NCBI GenBank assembly: GCA_026388115.1
Contig: JAPLKK010000035.1
Coordinates: 69,168-107,873 of the forward strand
Source: Elusimicrobiota bacterium
Lineage (GTDB): Bacteria; Elusimicrobiota; Elusimicrobia; UBA1565; JACRDR01
Length of the DNA stretch: 38,706 bases
Direction: 5' to 3'
The position numbers and the translations under genes are program-made. The notes under the pieces are model-generated. The model was not told where the DNA came from, did not search any database, and saw only the letters and a list, made by a program, of their open reading frames with translations. Numbering within the stretch: position 1 is the stretch's first letter; every line of letters starts with the position of its first letter. Shown in pieces: positions 23,980 to 38,601 of this stretch.

Positions 23980-24121
23980 CGTTGCGCCTGATGCACGCGT
24001 TCGAGCCACTGTACGAAACGAAGCGGTTCATGTCCATCGGCGCGCGGTTGGTGCCGGATGCTGACTTGACGCCCCGGTAGTTCGGGGTTAACCTGATATG
24101 GCGCGAAAAGCCGGGGGGGCC

Positions 24122-26185
24122 ATGCTCATAACTCGCATGCCGGGCCATGAGGATGAGGGAAATGGTGAGGACAAGCCGAGGAGGCCGTCGGCGCTATGGT
24201 TGATCCCGGCGTTCCTAGCGGCGGCTTTCCTCGTCGGTGCGATAGGGTTGCTCCTGGCTCTGCCGGCGGGGAGAGCGACAACGGTCTTCCCCGGCCGCGC
24301 CGATGAGAGCGGAAAGGCGAAGCTCGCCGCGGCGGCCCAAGCGAGGTCGCTCACCCCTCGGGAGCTGCGCGGATCGGCTCTCTACCAGGCGCCGGCGATG
24401 GCCACCCAGAAGGAGCAAGAGCTCACCCTCGACGAATTCCTCAAGGTCCTCGACGACCGGGTGCCGAAGTCCGTCTCGAAGAATTTCACGACCGAGTTCA
24501 TGAAGCAGCCGGCGCTCAAGCACGCGCTCACCTACTACCGGCGCAACCGCGGGCCGTACGCGGAGGCGAAGGAGTTCGTGAATTACATCACGCGCATCTC
24601 CGAGTTCCGCAAGCTCACGCAGCAGTTCAGCAGCAACGCCGCCTTCAACGCCGCCTACTCCGACGTGATGAAGAACCCGCAGACCGGCGCCATCGTCAAG
24701 GGCGGGCTCGCCAACTACACGAGCCAGACGCCGTCGGGCTCGGCGGCGCGCCAGTGGGCCGCTAAGCCCCGCTCGAACCCGTCCGCGGGAGTCGGTAGCG
24801 TGAGCGCCGTCGCGTCGTCCGGCGGACCGGGCGTCCTCACCGCGCGGGCGCCGGCGAGCGCAGGGGCCCTCACCGCCTACGGGCCGCCGGGCGCGATCGG
24901 GACGACCGAGCCGCCGGCGGGCGGTGCCGGCCCCAAGGGATCGGCGGACGTCCAGCTCGGAGGGGGGAACGCGTCGAAGGAGGGCTCGGACCAGAACAGC
25001 TTCGGCGGAGCCCCGCTTCCCAGCGGCAAAGCCGAGAAGAACAAGGGCGGGGACGCGGGCGGCGGGGGCTATGACGTCAACGACCACCTGTCGGGCAGCG
25101 GCGCTCTGCAGTCGAACATCGATTCGAACAAGAAGGAGTACACCAACCAGGGGCAGGCAGCGAGCTTCGACCCGAAGAACTACATCCAGCTGGTCCTCAA
25201 GTGGATGAACGTCCAAGACCAGACCGGCGTCTCGCGCGCGAACATGGAGTGCGCGATGGGGTGGAAGCCGGAGAAGACCACGAACGGGAAGGACTATTCC
25301 TGTCCCGGCGCGCTGAACGGCCTCGGCCCGGACGGCAACGGCGATGACATCTCCGGGGCGTGCTACGAAACCGGCTACTACAAGAAATGCGAGGAGTTCT
25401 GCGCGCAGGACCCCGCCCATTGCAACGGCGGGCTGGACAGCTATTGGGACTCCTGCCGCAAGGCCAAGTCCCACACGGGCGAGGACGACCCTTCCTGCAT
25501 CAAGAGCTGCACGCGGACTTCGGCCGCCCTCCCTTCGCAGCAGCACGCGCAGGATACCGACGCCTGCATGGCGACCATCGATCCCAAGATATGGGACGGC
25601 AACTGCAAGAGCAATGGCGTCTCCTGCGAGTATTGCCTGAAGTCGCAGGACTGCAACCCGCACTCCTGTCCCTGCCCGCAAGGCCCGTGCACCTGCTACG
25701 ACAACGGGACGCTGGTCGGCGGGACCCAGGAGCAGAACGCCGACGCCGCGCTGGTGATGGCACAGGAGGACGCCAAGGTCGGCTGCCCGACGTCGATGAA
25801 TCCCATCGAGTGCCAGTCTTATCTGAAATTCTGCGTCGCCACCAACTGCAACCCGCTGCAGAGGGACTGCAGAGTGGCGGGCAATTCGGCGGGCCTCACC
25901 ACGCCGACGGCCCAGCAGAACTGCGGGGGTGTCGGACAACCGGCGTGCGGACAGACGACCACGATGACGTCGACGAGTGTCACCGCCACGACGACCCGGC
26001 CTCCCGACCCGTGCGCCTCCGGCGACGCGCTCGGCTGCGGCGGCAAGGTCGGCAATTTCGGCGATAAGCTGTTCTCCGGCAAGTGCGGCTCGCCGTGCGG
26101 GCTGTTGGGCAAGATCGCCGGGGAGATCGACGGGATAGGCGCCGTCTTGCTCGGGCAGGGCAACTACTTCTCCGGCGATTATTAG
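24122..26185 (+). CDS. Membrane-anchored/exported protein: N-terminal TM, short helical domain, Gly/Ser-rich linker, Cys-rich C-terminus
   Basis: TM ALWLIPAFLAAAFLVGAIGLLLALPAG; LTLDEFLKVLDDRVPKSVSKNFTTEFMKQPALKHALTYYRRNRG; C-term Cys pairs CEYCLKSQDCNPHSCPCPQGPCTCYDNG; ORF open from 24098. Confidence 0.75.
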   Translation: MLITRMPGHEDEGNGEDKPRRPSALWLIPAFLAAAFLVGAIGLLLALPAGRATTVFPGRADESGKAKLAAAAQARSLTPRELRGSALYQAPAMATQKEQELTLDEFLKVLDDRVPKSVSKNFTTEFMKQPALKHALTYYRRNRGPYAEAKEFVNYITRISEFRKLTQQFSSNAAFNAAYSDVMKNPQTGAIVKGGLANYTSQTPSGSAARQWAAKPRSNPSAGVGSVSAVASSGGPGVLTARAPASAGALTAYGPPGAIGTTEPPAGGAGPKGSADVQLGGGNASKEGSDQNSFGGAPLPSGKAEKNKGGDAGGGGYDVNDHLSGSGALQSNIDSNKKEYTNQGQAASFDPKNYIQLVLKWMNVQDQTGVSRANMECAMGWKPEKTTNGKDYSCPGALNGLGPDGNGDDISGACYETGYYKKCEEFCAQDPAHCNGGLDSYWDSCRKAKSHTGEDDPSCIKSCTRTSAALPSQQHAQDTDACMATIDPKIWDGNCKSNGVSCEYCLKSQDCNPHSCPCPQGPCTCYDNGTLVGGTQEQNADAALVMAQEDAKVGCPTSMNPIECQSYLKFCVATNCNPLQRDCRVAGNSAGLTTPTAQQNCGGVGQPACGQTTTMTSTSVTATTTRPPDPCASGDALGCGGKVGNFGDKLFSGKCGSPCGLLGKIAGEIDGIGAVLLGQGNYFSGDY

Positions 26186-26275: not shown

Positions 26276-28759
26276 ATGACCACGGCCCGGACGGAGACCG
26301 CGTTCACGCCGCGCGAGGTCGCGGCGAGCCCATCGACGGAACGGACCGCCTTCCTTAAGAGGCGCTACCTTGAGGAGCCGCTGCGGGTGGACGTCGACTA
26401 CCTCCGCCTGCTCACCGAGTCGCACCGGCGCACCGGCGGCCTGCCGGTGCTCGAGCGGCGGGCCGAGGATCACGCCTACGCCCTCGAGCGGCTCACGCCG
26501 GTCATCCACCCGCATGATGAGATCGCGGCGAACAAGACGCGCTACATCCGCGGCGCCATCCCCTACGCCAATTATGCCGCGGGGCCCTTCCTCAAGGAGA
26601 TGCGGCGCCAGGTGCAGGACGCCCAGCAGAAGCACGTCGAGCAGGGCCGGGGAGGAGGCATCGCCGGCGCGCTGGAGCGGGCGCGAAAGGAAGGCTGTAG
26701 GGTCTTCTCGGGCAAGTTCCTCATCTCGCCGCAGGACTACGAGACCCTGCGCGAGGCGTGCGAGTACTGGGAAGGCAAGTGCTTCATGTCCTCGGGACAG
26801 AGGCTCTGGAAGGCGCGCATGCTCGAGGCGGGCTTCATCGAGAAGGGCTGGGCCGCCGGCCTCTACACCGCCCCGCATGAGCCCTGCCCCGAAGGCCGCT
26901 TGATCCTGGACTTCGAGACCGCGCTGGCCAAAGGCTACTGGCGGATGCTGGACGAGATCGAGCAGCGCTTGGCCTCGCCGGACCGCCGCGACGGCCGGCG
27001 CGCCGAGTTCTGGCGCGCGGCGAAGCGCGTGCTCGGAGGCGCCTTGGCCTTCGCCGAGAACTACGCCAAGGAGGCTGAGCGCCTGGCGGCCGCCGAGCCG
27101 GACCCCGAGCGCCGCAAGAGGCTGGGACGGATGGCGGCCGCCTGCCGCCGCGTCCCCGCCCAGCCGCCGCGCGACTTCAGGGAGGCGGTCCAGTCCTTCT
27201 GGTTCACCTACATCCTTGGTCACCTTGAGGGCTCGCACCTCGGCTACTCGCCGGGGCGGCTGGACCAGACCTTGTGGCCCTATTACCAGGCCGGCGGCGT
27301 GACCTACGAGGAGGCGGTGGAGCTGTTCGAGGAGCTCTTCGTCAAGATGACCCAGATCGAGTACCTGGCCAGCCTGAGCTGGCAGGGCCTGGGCCACGGC
27401 AATCTCTACCAGAACCTCATCCTCGGCGGGCTCGACGAGCGCGGCAGGCCGGCGGACAACGAGCTGTCGCTCGCCATCCTCGACGCTCAGATCCGCATGC
27501 AGATGACCCAGCCGACGCTCTCGGTCTGGCACGACGACTCGCTCTCCGAGAAGTTCCTGCTCAAGGCGGCGGAGTGCGTCAAGACGGGCGTCGGCTATCC
27601 CGCCTTCTTCAACCTCAAGACCTACATCGCCCATGAGACCGCGGCGAGCGGCCTCCCCATCGAGACCGTGCGCAAGCACGCGGCGATGGGCGGCTGCACC
27701 GAGCCGGTCCTGCAGGGTATGTCTTACGGCGTGGTGCAGGCGGGCTTCGTCAACCACGGCAAGCTCCTCGACCTGACGCTCAACGACGGCGTCGATCCCG
27801 TGACTGGCGACCGCCTGTTCGAGCCGCGCAAGCCCAAGAGCTACGAGGACATCCGCGCCTCCTACCTCGACAAGATGCGCGTCTCCGTGAGGCTTTGGCA
27901 GAGGTACTGGAACCACGTCATGGCGGCGCACCGCGAAACGGTGCCGCTCGTATTCTGCTCCGTGTTCGTGCGCGACTGCGTGGGCCGCGGCCTGTGCATG
28001 GACGACGGCGGCGCGGTGCTCAACGGGACCCCGACCACGCTGTCCTCGGGCCTCGTCAATGTCGCGAACTCGCTCGCCGCGATCAAGAAGCTGTGCTTCG
28101 AGGACAAGGCGTGCGGCTTGGGGGAGCTGAAAGCGGCGCTCGACGCCGATTGGAAGGGCCACGAGGCGTTGCGCAAAGCCGCCCTCGCCGCTCCCAAATG
28201 GGGCAACGACGACGACCGCGCCGACGACGTCTTCCTGGGTCTTTTCGACGAGTATTGCCGGTGGGTGCCGGGAGAGATGAACTATCTTGGCGAGCCCTAT
28301 GATCCTTCCATGCTCGCCATCTCCACGCCGGTCCCCTTCGGCAAGGCATGCGCCGCGTTCCCCGACGGCCGGCGCGCGGGCGAGCCGCTGGCCGACGGCG
28401 TCACTTCGCCTTTTCCCGGCACCGACCGGCGCGGCCCGACGGCGGTCGCGCGCTCGAGCGCCAAAGTGGACCACACCCGCATCCGCGGCGGGCTCTTGAA
28501 TCTGAAGTTCCATCCCTCGGCCTTGCGCGGCGAGGCCGGCTCGCGCAACCTCCTGGCCTTCATCAAGACGTATTTCGAGAAGCCGGGCTTCCATGTGCAG
28601 TTCAACGTCGTGGATTCGCGCATGCTGCGCGACGCCCAAGAGCGCCCCGAGGCCTACCGCGACCTGGTCGTGCGCGTGGCGGGTTTTTCGGCCTATTGGG
28701 TCGAGATGAGCAAGGCCCTGCAGGACCAGGTCATCTGGCGCACCGAGCACGGACTTTGA
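26276..28759 (+). CDS. Glycyl radical enzyme (pyruvate formate-lyase family, CxE subgroup), substrate unassigned
   Basis: Active site AAMGGCTEPVLQG (Cys474 and Glu476) and C-terminal glycyl radical motif RVAGFSAYWVEMSKALQDQVIWRTEH (Gly803 of 827). Confidence 0.93.
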   Translation: MTTARTETAFTPREVAASPSTERTAFLKRRYLEEPLRVDVDYLRLLTESHRRTGGLPVLERRAEDHAYALERLTPVIHPHDEIAANKTRYIRGAIPYANYAAGPFLKEMRRQVQDAQQKHVEQGRGGGIAGALERARKEGCRVFSGKFLISPQDYETLREACEYWEGKCFMSSGQRLWKARMLEAGFIEKGWAAGLYTAPHEPCPEGRLILDFETALAKGYWRMLDEIEQRLASPDRRDGRRAEFWRAAKRVLGGALAFAENYAKEAERLAAAEPDPERRKRLGRMAAACRRVPAQPPRDFREAVQSFWFTYILGHLEGSHLGYSPGRLDQTLWPYYQAGGVTYEEAVELFEELFVKMTQIEYLASLSWQGLGHGNLYQNLILGGLDERGRPADNELSLAILDAQIRMQMTQPTLSVWHDDSLSEKFLLKAAECVKTGVGYPAFFNLKTYIAHETAASGLPIETVRKHAAMGGCTEPVLQGMSYGVVQAGFVNHGKLLDLTLNDGVDPVTGDRLFEPRKPKSYEDIRASYLDKMRVSVRLWQRYWNHVMAAHRETVPLVFCSVFVRDCVGRGLCMDDGGAVLNGTPTTLSSGLVNVANSLAAIKKLCFEDKACGLGELKAALDADWKGHEALRKAALAAPKWGNDDDRADDVFLGLFDEYCRWVPGEMNYLGEPYDPSMLAISTPVPFGKACAAFPDGRRAGEPLADGVTSPFPGTDRRGPTAVARSSAKVDHTRIRGGLLNLKFHPSALRGEAGSRNLLAFIKTYFEKPGFHVQFNVVDSRMLRDAQERPEAYRDLVVRVAGFSAYWVEMSKALQDQVIWRTEHGL

Positions 28760-29661
28760 GCCGCGGACTGGTCTTCGACGTCCAGCGGTACGCGGTCCAC
28801 GACGGCCCGGGGATCAGGACCCTCGTGTTCCTCAAGGGCTGCCCGCTGCGCTGCGCCTGGTGCTGCAATCCCGAGTCCCAGCAGGCGCGCCCCGAGCCGA
28901 TGCGCCGGCCGGCGCTTTGCGCTGCTTGCAGGACCTGCGCCTCCGCCTGCCCGGCCGGCGCCGGCAAGCGCGACGGCCGCGGCGGACCGGTCTTGGACCG
29001 CGAGCGTTGCGCCGCCTGCGCGGACTTCGCCTGCGTCCAGGCCTGCCCGCACGACGCCATCAGCCGGGTCGGCCGCGAGGCGGACGCCGGCGAGCTTCTC
29101 TTTGAGATCGAGCAGGACCGCGACTTCTACCGCAACTCGGGCGGCGGTGCGACTTTTTCGGGAGGCGAGCCGTTCTTCCAGCCGGAGTTCTTGGGCGAGC
29201 TGCTCGCCGGCTGCCGCAGCCGGGGGATCCATGCCGCCGTCGAGACCTGCGGCCACGCTCGGACGGATATCCTGCTGGCGCTGGAACCCTCGATCGACCT
29301 GTTCCTATTCGACCTCAAGGTCTTGGACGCGCAGGCGCACTGCCGTCTCACCGGCCAGGACAACGGTCTCATCCTGGATAATTTCCACCGTCTGGCCTCA
29401 CGCTGTCCGGACAAGGTCACGGCGCGCCTGACGGTGATCCCCGGCGTTTCCGATTCGGAGGAGAACGTCTCGGCCTTCGCCGGCCTGCTCCACGAAACGG
29501 GGCTCGAGACCGTCGAGCTGCTGGCCTACCATCCGCTGGGACTGGGCAAGTGGGATGGTCTCGACCGGGAGCCGCTCTTGCGGCCCGAACCGGGCCTGGC
29601 CGCCTCCAGCCTAGCCGAGGTCAAGCTTCGCTTGACGCGGCAAGGCATCTCCTGCCGCTGA
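28756..29661 (+). CDS. Glycyl radical enzyme activating enzyme (radical SAM with ferredoxin insert)
   Basis: DGPGIRTLVFLKGCPLRCAWCCNPESQ; CAACRTCASACPAG and CAACADFACVQACPHDAI; GGGATFSGGEPFFQPEFL; TTG start in TTGA overlap with upstream stop. Confidence 0.93.
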   Translation: MSRGLVFDVQRYAVHDGPGIRTLVFLKGCPLRCAWCCNPESQQARPEPMRRPALCAACRTCASACPAGAGKRDGRGGPVLDRERCAACADFACVQACPHDAISRVGREADAGELLFEIEQDRDFYRNSGGGATFSGGEPFFQPEFLGELLAGCRSRGIHAAVETCGHARTDILLALEPSIDLFLFDLKVLDAQAHCRLTGQDNGLILDNFHRLASRCPDKVTARLTVIPGVSDSEENVSAFAGLLHETGLETVELLAYHPLGLGKWDGLDREPLLRPEPGLAASSLAEVKLRLTRQGISCR

Positions 29662-32813: not shown

Positions 32814-34265
32814 ATGTCTCAACGCGAGCCCGACCAAGAAGGCATCCCGGAGTTGGCGATGGGCGTGGGCCCGGCGTCCGTTCCCCCGCCGCAAAAAAAC
32901 GACAACAGGCCGCTGATCATCGGAGTCGTCGTCGCCGTGCTCGCCGCCGTCTTGACCTTCGTGCTGGTCGCGCGACGCCGGGGCGCCACCGATGCCATGG
33001 TGACCGCGGCCACCGGGCCAAGCGCCCCCATGGCGCCGCAGAAGTCGTGGTGGGCAGGCAAGTTCGCCGGGGGCGGGGGAGGCGCGGGAGCCGGCCCCTC
33101 GGCGGCCGCGGGTGCCGTGGCGGAGCGGGCCGGCGCCTCCACCGGAAACGCGGACATCGACGCTCCCATCACCTTGAGCGCGTTCTTGGACATCCTGGGC
33201 TCGCGCGTCTCCGAGGACAAGCGCGCGGCGTTCCTCGATGCCGTGCAGAAGGATCCCGCCATGCGCTCGACCCTCGAGGGACTCACCAAGGCCAGGGGCG
33301 GGCGATTCTCCGCGGCGGACGGGCTGGCGGCCCTCAACTCGCACGGAGGCCTCGACGGAATGGGGGCTAAATTCGGCGCCGCCCCGGGCGCCTTCGCCTC
33401 GGCCCGTGCGGCGGGCGGCGGGCTCGGTTCAGTCGGCGGAGTCGTCTCCGATGGCTCGATGGGCGCCTTCGGCTCGGTCGGAAGGTTCGGCGCCAACCAG
33501 TCGGGCTCCGCCGCTTCCTCGGGTCCCGGGGGCCGCTTCGAGAGCGTGGGCTCTTCGCAGCACGCGACCTTCATGCCGGGCTCCGGCCCCTCGGGCCCCG
33601 CGACGCGCCAGACGCGCTCCAACGCGCGGCGCTACGGGGCGCCCGTGGACGCCCCTTACACGCAGACCCGGCTCAACGGCGGCCAATGGAACACCCAGCT
33701 CGCCCAGGCCGGGGGGGCGACGCCAGACGACTTCGGCTGGAAGCCCCACGCCTGGGCCGCCATGAATGAGGCGGACCGCCAGTCATTGAAGGACCTGGAG
33801 ACCGAAGATCATAATCAGCCCGGCCCGGAGCAGCCCGGCATCGCGAGCGGCGGCTGCTCGGGCGCTTGGTGCCAGGTCAGGAGCTGCGGCAAGCACTGCG
33901 TCTACTGCTACCACAAGTATCCGTACAGCAACGGCGTGACGATCGGCTGCGGTGGGCCGCAGAACGATTACGACGGCCCGAACCACGCGAACATCAAGGG
34001 CTTCTGTCTCTACGGCGCCGGCAGCTTCGGAGCCTGCCGGCAGGCGTGCGAGGGAGACCACAATCCTCCTTGCGACCAGTACAACGGCACCGCCGGCAAC
34101 AGCACGAAACAGCAGATAGGAGACGGCATCGGCCCGCCGATCGGCGCGGACAACAACGGGACCAACACCAGCGGCGCGGACGACGGAAAAGGTCAAGAGG
34201 CGTGCGTCCTGCCCTGCGGCTACACTGGGACCGTTCCGCCCGGCTGCGTGGTGAACTGCCCCTAA
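32814..34265 (+). CDS. Membrane-anchored Gly-rich protein with Cys-rich C-terminus; architecture paralogous to 24122-26185
   Basis: TM RPLIIGVVVAVLAAVLTFVLVA; ITLSAFLDILGSRVSEDKRAAFLDAVQKDPAMRSTLEGLTKARGG; Gly-rich linker; CSGAWCQVRSCGKHCVYCYHKYP and terminal CVLPCGYTGTVPPGCVVNCP. Confidence 0.78.
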   Translation: MSQREPDQEGIPELAMGVGPASVPPPQKNDNRPLIIGVVVAVLAAVLTFVLVARRRGATDAMVTAATGPSAPMAPQKSWWAGKFAGGGGGAGAGPSAAAGAVAERAGASTGNADIDAPITLSAFLDILGSRVSEDKRAAFLDAVQKDPAMRSTLEGLTKARGGRFSAADGLAALNSHGGLDGMGAKFGAAPGAFASARAAGGGLGSVGGVVSDGSMGAFGSVGRFGANQSGSAASSGPGGRFESVGSSQHATFMPGSGPSGPATRQTRSNARRYGAPVDAPYTQTRLNGGQWNTQLAQAGGATPDDFGWKPHAWAAMNEADRQSLKDLETEDHNQPGPEQPGIASGGCSGAWCQVRSCGKHCVYCYHKYPYSNGVTIGCGGPQNDYDGPNHANIKGFCLYGAGSFGACRQACEGDHNPPCDQYNGTAGNSTKQQIGDGIGPPIGADNNGTNTSGADDGKGQEACVLPCGYTGTVPPGCVVNCP

Positions 34266-34419
34266 GTCGGGCTGCTGACAGGGGACTTTAGGCGTTTAAG
34301 GCGCCCCTTATTCGCTCCACACGGATGGAAAGACACCGATTTTTACGGCATCTTTTCCTTAAATAAAGAATTAGTCGCCTCCGATGGATCATCCGGGCAT
34401 ACTGTCGGTGCAGGCGGCT

Positions 34420-35421
34420 ATGAAACTTGATTTCGGCAACTCAACCATTCAACTTTTTGGAGCGACTGCTGGAGCCGCGCTTCTGGGCGCGGCTGTCCTG
34501 ACTCTCGGCCCCGAGGGCAACTGGAGCCAGGTGGACGACGCAGCCTCCGCTCACGTCGCGGCCGCGAGCGGCGTCTTCCAGTTTCCCAGGCGCGAGGCGG
34601 CCGTGTCTTCCGCGTCATCCGATATCGGTCCCGTCCGCGACTCCCTGGCCCCGGCGGCCAACGGCAGCTTGCCCGGCGCGAACCCCGCCTCGGCCGCATA
34701 CTCGCCCGCGCAGGCGAGCGCGGACAGCGGCGCGGGCTGGATGTCGCGAGAGGCGGCGTCGGAGTGGATCGACACGCTAAGCTATCTTCTCAGCAAGCAC
34801 CCCGGCCAAGCCTTGACCGGGACCCATCCGATCAGCATGACGGTCATCGGTCAGACCGCCTACTACGTCAAGTGGGCCGCCGACGTGTTCGACGTGTACG
34901 CCTGGGACGACGAGTACGTCTATTTGAAGGAGGTCCACAGCGGCGGCCATCCCTACTCCCTCGACCCGGGCAAGTTGATGAAGCGCTCGATGAGGATCGG
35001 CGATAGCGTGGAGGCCGAAGGCACGATGAGCGTCGATTTCGACGGCCGCTGCCGCGCCACGGGCGCTCAACTGTACCCTTATCGCATGACCCTCGAGGGT
35101 CGTTACGAGTCCTACGACGTGGGCGGCGCCCTGGCCGGTCAGGATGTCATCGTGCTCAAGTACGATTACTTCCATGGCAATTATGAGCGCTTCTTCTTCA
35201 GCAAGGAGTGGGGCTTGGTGCGCTGGGAGCTGTACGCCGGCGGCGCGCTGAAGCATGCCTCCGTCTTCAATGCGCCAGCAGGCTCCGCGACCCCTCCCGA
35301 CACGGCAGCCGCCTGCGGCCAGCAGGGGAGAGGGATCAGCGACGTCGACGCGCTGACCCGGAACCCGCTGAGGCTGACGCCGCGGGGCTGGAGCATCGGC
35401 GGCTCGGCCAAGAGCCGCTAG
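34420..35421 (+). CDS. Hypothetical exported/anchored protein
   Basis: Start MKLDFGNSTIQLFGATAGAALLGAAVLTLG; long ORF with protein-like composition; no family recognised. Confidence 0.65.
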   Translation: MKLDFGNSTIQLFGATAGAALLGAAVLTLGPEGNWSQVDDAASAHVAAASGVFQFPRREAAVSSASSDIGPVRDSLAPAANGSLPGANPASAAYSPAQASADSGAGWMSREAASEWIDTLSYLLSKHPGQALTGTHPISMTVIGQTAYYVKWAADVFDVYAWDDEYVYLKEVHSGGHPYSLDPGKLMKRSMRIGDSVEAEGTMSVDFDGRCRATGAQLYPYRMTLEGRYESYDVGGALAGQDVIVLKYDYFHGNYERFFFSKEWGLVRWELYAGGALKHASVFNAPAGSATPPDTAAACGQQGRGISDVDALTRNPLRLTPRGWSIGGSAKSR

Positions 35422-35469: not shown

Positions 35470-37116
35470 TTATGGGAGGATCGTCAGGCGGGTGAAGCTG
35501 CGGTAATGATCCGAGGTGTAGTAGATCTCGTGGCCGCCGCCGATGATGAGCCGCTCCGCCCCGCGGGGGCCGCCGTTGTGGTCCGGTTGGCAGACCTTGT
35601 CGCCGACTTTGAAGACGGCCAGGCTGCCGTGCGGCGGGATGAACGTGTACTCTCGGTAGTAACCGACGGGCTGGGCGGGCAGTAGCCCCTCGGCGTTCTT
35701 CCAAACCCCGCCATCCTGTTTGTGGGACAGAGGATTTCCCGCCTTGATATCTGAGATCAACTGCTGGATGGCCTCGGCCCGCTTTGGGTCGCTGATCGCC
35801 GGGGCGATGCCCGTTCCGACCGGCTTGCTTTGGCGCAGGAGGGACTGCGCCAAGCCCCGCTCTCCGGGCGCCAGCGGCCGGTCTTGGGCCGCTATCTGAC
35901 CGAAGGAGGCGCGGTCCGTCGGCTCATAAGTCCCGTCGCTCCGGCGCTGGAAGACCTTCATCTCGTCGCCCGCGAAGAAGATCACCTGGTCGAGCGCCAC
36001 CTGCTTGGACCCGGCCTGCCAGGAGTCGAGGGTCTGCTGGAGCAGGGAGAGAGGGAGGTGGGACTCCTTCGCCAGGTCCACCGCGGCCGCTCCGTGGCCC
36101 AGGCCATGGATGCGGGCGTGCTCGTAGACTTGGTGGTCGGCTTTGTCGATGATCTGTTCGAGCGTCATCTGCTCGCCCAGGAAGGTCTTCATCTCCACGA
36201 TCCGGCCGCCGATGACCAGATCCGGGGTCTTGCCGTCCTCGCGCACGAGCACCCGGATGTCGGGATCCATGCGCGCGAGCTTGCGGATCAAGGTCACCTC
36301 GTGCGGCTCTAGGCCCGGGACCCGGCTCATGATCGCAGGAGAGGCCGCCAGGTCGATGCCTACGAGGCGTCCGCCGCGGTGGTCGTAGTAGGTGTAGATG
36401 CGGTATGGCGTCATGTCGGAGAGGTTGCTCTTGAGCCCCGCGATGAGCCCTTCGAGGTATTCGCGGACGTAGGGGTTGTGGCTGTGGCGCGGGTCCGGCA
36501 GGAGCCGATCGATATCGGCGGCCGTGCGCACCGTATCCACCGAGACCCTTTCGATGCCCGGCGGCAGGCGGACCGCGGCGAGGTCCAGGGCTTCGCCGGT
36601 CGCGGCCGGGGACTTGGCGGCTTGGTTGAAGAAGCGTTCGGATAGCTCCGCCGAGGCGTCGGCCCCTCCGCGGCGGGACTCCTCCATGCCCGCGGTGAAG
36701 CTCTTGAGCGAGTCCATGGCGGCGGCGGATCCCTTCTGCTTTTCCGGCGTTTGCTGCCGCGCGCCGGCCTCCTCGGCCGCGCCCACGCCCTGGGCCGCGG
36801 GAAGAGCGGTAATAGCCGGCTGTGCCAAGACCCGGGCCGAGACCGCGCTCTCGACCGGCAGGGCGCGCAGCGCCGATGCCGAGGGGATGAGGGAGGGCGT
36901 CAGCGCGGAGGGGGTCAGCGGCAGGGAGAGGGAAGCGGAGGGAAGGCTCCCCAAAGCCGGGCCCTGCACGGCCCCGATGGAGAAATAGCCCTGGACCGCG
37001 GCTGCGGCCGCTCCGGCCGGAGCGAGCGGGACCTGCACCCGGACCGGGGCGACCTCCTGGCCGTAGAGGGGCGCGAACACGAAGCACGCGAGGAGCCACG
37101 CTGCTGATTTCTTCAT
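35470..37116 (-). CDS. Exported protein with C-terminal barnase/RNase Sa-like ribonuclease domain and a central PD-(D/E)XK-like (CdiA-C-like) segment
   Basis: Signal MKKSAAWLLACFVFAPLYGQ; C-term VWKNAEGLLPAQPVGYYREYTFIPP...RGAERLIIGGGHEIYYTSDHYRSFTRLTILP with Glu/Arg/His of barnase family; KTPDLVIGGRIVEMKTF segment. Confidence 0.82.
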   Translation of the reverse strand: MKKSAAWLLACFVFAPLYGQEVAPVRVQVPLAPAGAAAAAVQGYFSIGAVQGPALGSLPSASLSLPLTPSALTPSLIPSASALRALPVESAVSARVLAQPAITALPAAQGVGAAEEAGARQQTPEKQKGSAAAMDSLKSFTAGMEESRRGGADASAELSERFFNQAAKSPAATGEALDLAAVRLPPGIERVSVDTVRTAADIDRLLPDPRHSHNPYVREYLEGLIAGLKSNLSDMTPYRIYTYYDHRGGRLVGIDLAASPAIMSRVPGLEPHEVTLIRKLARMDPDIRVLVREDGKTPDLVIGGRIVEMKTFLGEQMTLEQIIDKADHQVYEHARIHGLGHGAAAVDLAKESHLPLSLLQQTLDSWQAGSKQVALDQVIFFAGDEMKVFQRRSDGTYEPTDRASFGQIAAQDRPLAPGERGLAQSLLRQSKPVGTGIAPAISDPKRAEAIQQLISDIKAGNPLSHKQDGGVWKNAEGLLPAQPVGYYREYTFIPPHGSLAVFKVGDKVCQPDHNGGPRGAERLIIGGGHEIYYTSDHYRSFTRLTILP

Positions 37117-37247
37117 CCTATATAGAAGAGTAGCTTCAGCCCGGAGGAGCGTAAAGGTCCAAAGGGCCACGAGGCTAGGGTCTTAGGGCCCAAACCATTG
37201 AGTTTACTCGTGGGTCGTGGAGCGGGGGATGCGGTTTAGTTCGGCGC

Positions 37248-37686: not shown

Positions 37687-38601
37687 ATGGAACGAAAGCA
37701 TCCGGTTCTCCTGGTGTGGCTGGCGGCGGCTCTGGCCGCCTTTCTGCCGACGCTTTGCCGGGGACAAGGCACGCTGAAGCAGGGCGGTTCTCAAGCCCGC
37801 TGCGCCGCCGGCAAGAAGGCGGCGTCCGATACGAAGCAGAAGATCCTCAGCGCCATGAAGAATACCGGCGCCAGCAAGGTCGACATCGACCCGTGCGGAT
37901 CCGACTTCAGGCTGACGCAGGGCGTCGAGGGCTGCACGATCCGGGCGGTGGGCGGGAAGGTGACCACGGATTGTTCGGGCGCCGGCGCGACTCCACTCTC
38001 GGAGGCCGACGCGAAGAAGGCTCACTACGACGCGCTGGCCGACCAGCTCAAACGCGAGCACCCGGAGATCCCGCAGAACGCGGTCCACAAACTGTTCCAA
38101 TACATGCAAGACCACGATGTCCCGAACACCCAGTACGCGGCCATCGCCGATTTCGACCGCCCTTCCAACGAGCGCCGCTTGAGCATCATCAATCTGGAAG
38201 ACGGCAGCGTCGAGTCGTATCTGGTGGCGCACGGCGCGGGCTCCGGCGGGCTTTACGCGACCAACTTCTCCGACGATCCGGGCAGCCATGAGAGCTCGCT
38301 CGGCATCTACGAGACGGGGCCGCAATACGACGGCGAGCACGGCCGCTCGCTCAAGCTCATCGGGATGGAGTCCTCCAACCAAGACGCCGAGTCGCGCAGC
38401 GTGGTAATGCATGGGGCGAAGTACGTCTCCGACAGCTACGTGGCCGACAACGGGCAGGTCGGGCGTTCTTGGGGCTGCACGGCGGTCGATTACCGCTACC
38501 GCGACCACATCATGAACGAGCTCGAAGGCGGGGCGGCGCTTCTCGTCTACCACGCATCGCCAAGCGGGAGCGATAGCTCCCTCGTCGCTAGCGCTCCCTG
38601 A
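37687..38601 (+). CDS. Exported murein L,D-transpeptidase catalytic (YkuD_2-like) family protein
   Basis: Signal MERKHPVLLVWLAAALAAFLPTLCRG; YAAIADFDRPSNERRLSIINLEDGSVESYLVAHGAGSG, SVVMHGAKYVSD, GRSWGCTAVDYRYRDHIMNEL (His/Ser-x-Gly-Cys). Confidence 0.8.
   Translation: MERKHPVLLVWLAAALAAFLPTLCRGQGTLKQGGSQARCAAGKKAASDTKQKILSAMKNTGASKVDIDPCGSDFRLTQGVEGCTIRAVGGKVTTDCSGAGATPLSEADAKKAHYDALADQLKREHPEIPQNAVHKLFQYMQDHDVPNTQYAAIADFDRPSNERRLSIINLEDGSVESYLVAHGAGSGGLYATNFSDDPGSHESSLGIYETGPQYDGEHGRSLKLIGMESSNQDAESRSVVMHGAKYVSDSYVADNGQVGRSWGCTAVDYRYRDHIMNELEGGAALLVYHASPSGSDSSLVASAP

Follow-up and report, generated by a model that had tools for sequence, protein, structure and literature searches.

RNase Sa, RNase Sa3 and barnase are secreted members of the ribonuclease N1/T1 family (PF00545) with Glu, Arg and His at their catalytic positions, and CdiA_C (PF18451) is the domain at the end of CdiA in the CdiA/CdiB/CdiI systems of contact-dependent inhibition. 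The BECR and PD-(D/E)XK superfamilies between them supply most of the CDI toxins of known structure, and one PD-(D/E)XK toxin, BpE479, is listed with an alpha-beta-beta-beta-alpha-beta start (PMC9086364). Barnase cassettes also occur in Sec-exported polymorphic toxins together with Imm-Barstar, and barnase-barstar pairs have been called an incipient toxin-immunity arrangement (PMC3482391). In this study we describe a gene from an environmental, little-studied bacterium of the mostly uncultured phylum Elusimicrobiota, which we read, by its domain homologies, as encoding a predicted exported fusion of two unrelated types of nucleic-acid-cutting domain. Both domain families are already known; a limited literature search found no published description either of a protein that unites a CdiA_C-like core and RNase Sa or of the LOG-fused family to which the central part of this one is related.

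The gene lies in the window, by which we mean the whole 38,706-nucleotide stretch of DNA that was analysed. An earlier sequence-only reading had placed at 35470-37116 an exported protein with perhaps two nuclease modules. The open frame is there, and sequence and profile comparison upheld both domain homologies, with export as a prediction. From an ATG start at 37116 it runs for 548 codons, in the order signal peptide, Ala/Pro/Ser-rich stretch, central PD-(D/E)XK-like domain and C-terminal RNase Sa/barnase domain; with an alternative GTG start at 37170 the protein would be 566 aa long and have 18 residues ahead of the signal peptide. The features are as follows.

35470..37116, minus strand: whole gene, predicted exported PD-(D/E)XK and RNase Sa fusion, 548 aa in a single open frame
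37057..37116, minus strand: residues 1-20, probable Sec signal peptide (KK and a hydrophobic run ahead of YGQ-EV, judged by eye)
36727..37056, minus strand: probable linker, residues 21-130, 46% Ala, Pro and Ser
36331..36594, minus strand: N-terminal part of a conserved Elusimicrobiota module, residues 175-262 (homologue alignment, AlphaFold2)
35929..36330, minus strand: predicted PD-(D/E)XK core, CdiA_C-like, residues 263-396 (invariant residues, AlphaFold2, hhalign)
36298..36300, minus strand: Glu273 of the invariant HE, predicted active-site Glu on a helix
36220..36222, minus strand: Asp299 of TPD, invariant
36187..36195, minus strand: Glu308-Met-Lys310, the ExK motif, Glu and Lys invariant
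36130..36132, minus strand: Gln329, in the helix after ExK, invariant
35473..35820, minus strand: RNase Sa/barnase domain, residues 433-548 (PF00545, PDB 1mgr; standalone homologues align from about residue 432)
35650..35652, minus strand: Glu489, catalytic base position, in YREYT, aligned with the Glu of YYHEYT in RNase Sa/Sa3
35551..35553, minus strand: Arg522, catalytic Arg position, in AERLI, aligned with the RNase Sa/Sa3 Arg
35506..35508, minus strand: His537, catalytic acid position, in SDHYR, aligned with the His of DHY in RNase Sa/Sa3

The N-terminal parts agree with what had been proposed, a Sec signal peptide followed by about 110 residues rich in Ala, Pro and Ser. The probable signal peptide, judged by eye, is MKKSAAWLLACFVFAPLYGQ, and similar Ala/Pro/Ser-rich stretches are carried by the homologues of the central module.

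The assignment of the C-terminus to the RNase Sa/barnase family, suspected from the start, is secure at the level of sequence homology. The PF00545 match over residues 445-544 scored 49.3 bits against a curated cut-off of 24 (E=7.2e-13), and a PDB sequence search matched RNase Sa3 (PDB 1mgr, E=5.3e-12). The catalytic Glu, Arg and His that had been picked out by motif correspond to Glu489, Arg522 and His537, the equivalences being taken from the PDB search alignment to RNase Sa/Sa3. The domain differs from the known enzymes in an insertion of ~18 residues that separates the YREYT strand from the RGAERLI strand and is common to the aligned Elusimicrobiota members, in the addition of a second nuclease-like domain to the protein, and in the lack of an adjacent barstar gene.

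For the central region the earlier proposal was a PD-(D/E)XK domain of the CdiA C-terminal type with a D-x(n)-E-x-K pattern, to be checked by structure prediction. The motif KTPDLVIGGRIVEMKTF, which holds Asp299, Glu308 and Lys310, is present, and these three residues are invariant among 31 aligned homologues, some of them only ~30% identical. In all, 12 columns are invariant across the 31 sequences (H-E, G, T-P-D, E-x-K, A, Q, H and G). The AlphaFold2 model of the core (pLDDT 91.2, pTM 0.86) has, by DSSP, the order helix, strand, strand, strand, helix, strand, helix, strand, strand, which agrees with the listed start of BpE479 (PMC9086364); a model that included the N-terminal part of the module had an overall pLDDT of 87.5. 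Aligned by hhalign to 11 genuine CdiA_C (PF18451) domains from other Elusimicrobiota, the central module scored 50.8 (E=4e-8, probability 95%) with the motifs in register, as against at most 18.6 for 60 column-shuffled alignments and 9.3 for the reversed one. The Pfam match of PF18451 itself to the window's middle fragment was under the cut-off (13.8 bits vs 26.6, E=0.07-0.2); among the homologues, 10 of 21 gave sub-threshold or weak matches, the best at E=0.0024, and the CdiA_C family search found no match in this genome.

Neither AlphaFold2 model gave a Foldseek match in the PDB at E<=0.001, and a PDB profile search with the middle domain returned nothing relevant; support for the fold thus comes from the motif, the topology and the profile comparison. 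The nearest plausible Foldseek structures, two XisH-family entries (2okf and 2inb), were weak (TM 0.40-0.49), and this likeness carries no weight in the assignment. Taken together, the sequence and model evidence gives good support to a middle domain of PD-(D/E)XK fold and CdiA_C type, which may be a tRNase, a DNase or another nuclease. It shares with CdiA_C the HE, TPD, ExK and Q motifs and the order of secondary structure, but lies mid-protein in a Sec-exported protein instead of at the end of CdiA, has ~11 more residues past the Gln helix, and comes without a recognised CdiI-like partner. PD-(D/E)XK folds include members that are not nucleases. One could therefore imagine that RNase Sa is the only active enzyme here and that the middle domain binds nucleic acid or serves some other task, a reading to which such members and the want of a significant match to any solved structure lend something. 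All the expected catalytic residues are nevertheless invariant in 31 divergent sequences, and we consider this reading improbable.

The central domain is, by its distribution in the sequence searches, an Elusimicrobiota-specific, predicted exported module. It was found in 31 of 342 genomes of the phylum, one copy in each and all in one order; another four matches, weak ones from a different family, are CdiA_C proteins, and a contig profile search with a closer subset of homologues gave 14 loci, all from Elusimicrobiota. Short frames of 125-210 aa with true CdiA_C (PF18451) and no obvious delivery part (L083-L099) are present in many genomes of a different Elusimicrobiota family, f21.

The C-terminal partner of the module is most commonly a LOG/lysine-decarboxylase domain, elsewhere nothing, and in this genome alone (1 of 342) RNase Sa. 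The protein continues into a LOG domain at most of the loci read: at L010 this partner matched PF03641 at E=1e-26 and also TIGR00730, and at the others the motif GGGPGIMEAANRGAFEAGGPSVGYNI or a near variant could be recognised by eye. The LOG-fused family (L004-L032, e.g. L010:1387-3258) has signal-peptide-like starts, and an exported LOG domain is unusual. Standalone forms terminate ...RAQALLRNGIEKSPVLALSL, and four relatives (L004-L007) stop shortly past ...RAQALLRNG, the point at which the window protein continues into RNase Sa; L009 and L013 have a shorter tail behind the module. The window protein groups with four standalone forms and one LOG form in a single supported clade (100/99), so that the partner was lost or exchanged within a close group.

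Since the fusion is known from one metagenome-assembled genome, its rarity, together with the long branch of its RNase domain relative to its paralogues (1.85 in the tree), might be taken as a sign of misassembly, or of a frozen accident confined to this genome, with a decaying RNase domain. Against this, the gene is an uninterrupted frame within a 142,933-base contig (of an assembly of 4.15 Mb), the catalytic residues are kept, and the junction falls where the standalone forms naturally end. GC3 is 0.85-0.91 in each of the four parts of the gene, and this evenness leaves no sequence sign of a chimera. We regard an artefact or decay as very improbable.

Two other proteins of the phylum, besides that of the window, stand as RNase Sa fusions on sequence comparison. 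One (L028:1495-2883, minus strand) joins an exported metallo-beta-lactamase-fold domain (PF00753, E=6e-21) to RNase Sa (PF00545, E=2e-10), shows a ComEC-like motif by eye, and lies on a contig that carries another RNase Sa gene nearby. The other (L104:275-1633, plus strand) is 453 aa long, with a repeat-like helical N-terminal part, hydrophobic segments and a C-terminal RNase Sa; a barstar match lies just downstream of it (G195:C41:12161-12430). Four more candidates, L102, L103, L105 and L106, were rejected and read as short RNases whose frame happens to extend upstream.

Across the phylum we found at least 97 RNase Sa places in at least 68 genomes, a barstar gene coming next on the same strand after 61 of the 97 places found (median of 110 bases between the matched segments), and barnase-barstar pairs, with an exported RNase Sa, in at least 61 genomes, one pair per genome and many of these also with orphan RNase copies, all of these counts being lower bounds as few candidates were scored per genome. 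Such frequent pairing would fit an RNase that is toxic to its maker, and a competitive role is possible. Three RNase Sa domains are encoded in this genome. Its single barstar (L003:317-754, minus strand; PF01337, E=4e-25) adjoins the RNase Sa copy on another contig, C256, and not that of the window; no barstar was found within the window.

The gene downstream of the fusion is convergent and unrelated, on the opposite strand (34384-35421), and Pfam recognised no known domain in it. At 15 loci of the central module, where part of the neighbour clusters was identified, no candidate emerged for a shared immunity gene; the largest clusters reach 7 of 15 loci once the gene itself and shadow frames are excluded, and the neighbours that could be named are an IMP dehydrogenase-like gene (PF00478), a recombinase (PF00239) and two small DUF genes. 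Elsewhere in the window, an exported L,D-transpeptidase-like protein (37687-38601, plus strand; PF13645, E=2e-48) is divergent from the fusion gene, and a glycyl radical enzyme (26276-29661, plus strand; PF02901, PF01228) precedes the gene for its radical-SAM activating enzyme. Two large proteins rich in Cys, each with a membrane segment at the N-terminus (24098-26185 and 32814-34265, plus strand), have a short similar stretch in common (E=7e-5) and no significant Pfam family.

These surroundings bear on whether the protein is an antibacterial effector, one that would be released, or delivered to rival cells, and whose two nucleases would kill these competitors in the manner of Sec-exported polymorphic toxins, with the barstar acting in trans as immunity. 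The prominence among CDI toxins of the superfamilies of both domains, BECR and PD-(D/E)XK (PMC9086364), the description of barnase-barstar pairs as incipient toxin-immunity arrangements (PMC3482391) and the fusion of RNase Sa to other proteins at L028 and L104 would all suit this reading. It would likewise account for a trait of polymorphic toxins that is found here, a constant N-terminal part before differing C-terminal domains (LOG, none or RNase Sa), just as an exported protein with a C-terminal RNase, in a phylum with barstar pairs, resembles the toxins described with barnase cassettes (PMC3482391). But the haemagglutinin, RHS and PAAR parts, whose absence had already been remarked, are likewise absent from the Pfam search of the protein, as are delivery or trafficking, repeat, pretoxin and processing domains, and at 548 aa the protein lacks the haemagglutinin repeats of CdiA. 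No immunity gene was recognised adjoining the fusion gene, in the LOG forms the PD-(D/E)XK domain does not stand at the C-terminus, and each genome has a single conserved copy and not a set of alleles. The absence of delivery domains, of an adjacent immunity gene and of allelic variation argues against a polymorphic toxin, the LOG domain as the module's commonest partner points the same way, and we hold the effector reading to be rather unlikely, though the most serious of the competing explanations.

The interpretation we lean towards, if only by a little, is that of a Sec-exported double nuclease for scavenging or general nucleic-acid degradation. The LOG-type domain (PF03641, TIGR00730), in whose place the window protein has RNase Sa, is nucleoside-monophosphate phosphoribohydrolase-like and acts on nucleoside monophosphates in characterised relatives. 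As the usual partner of the module elsewhere it would fit a pathway in which nucleic acid is broken down to nucleotides and these to bases. The scavenging reading is suggested by this partner, by the lack of an adjacent immunity gene, and by the searches with the fusion protein, which gave no phage match and nothing from plasmids beyond weak matches to the RNase domain; PADLOC and NCBIfam searches of the protein gave no match. Secreted nucleases have been discussed as a source of nutrients or nucleobases for environmental bacteria (PMC11495043). On this model, a RNase Sa cassette would have replaced the LOG-type domain present in most homologues, and the Sec pathway would export a protein bearing two independent nuclease domains, the middle one probably a metal-dependent PD-(D/E)XK nuclease of CdiA_C type and the C-terminal one an RNase of RNase Sa type, guanyl-specific and needing no metal. 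Before export, the barstar encoded elsewhere in the genome could restrain the RNase; after export, both nuclease domains would digest DNA and/or RNA, foreign or released, the most likely benefit being a supply of nucleotides. Export, activity, substrate and the preference for scavenging over killing are all what we infer from these comparisons.

Tentatively, and with rather more doubt than belief, one may go further and see in these proteins an exported Elusimicrobiota family in which a CdiA_C-like core with an exchanged catalytic partner carries out a two-enzyme extracellular breakdown of nucleic acids, a CdiA-type toxin domain thus serving as a digestive nuclease. The protein in the window brings together, in one short and predicted exported chain without the usual delivery parts, the two superfamilies that dominate bacterial competition toxins, and its relatives tie the CdiA_C-like nuclease core to a nucleotide-processing LOG domain, all in a phylum where barnase-barstar pairs are now documented on this scale. 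If the two domains are active, the fusion would show toxin-type nucleases used for, or derived from, the ordinary digestion of external nucleic acids.
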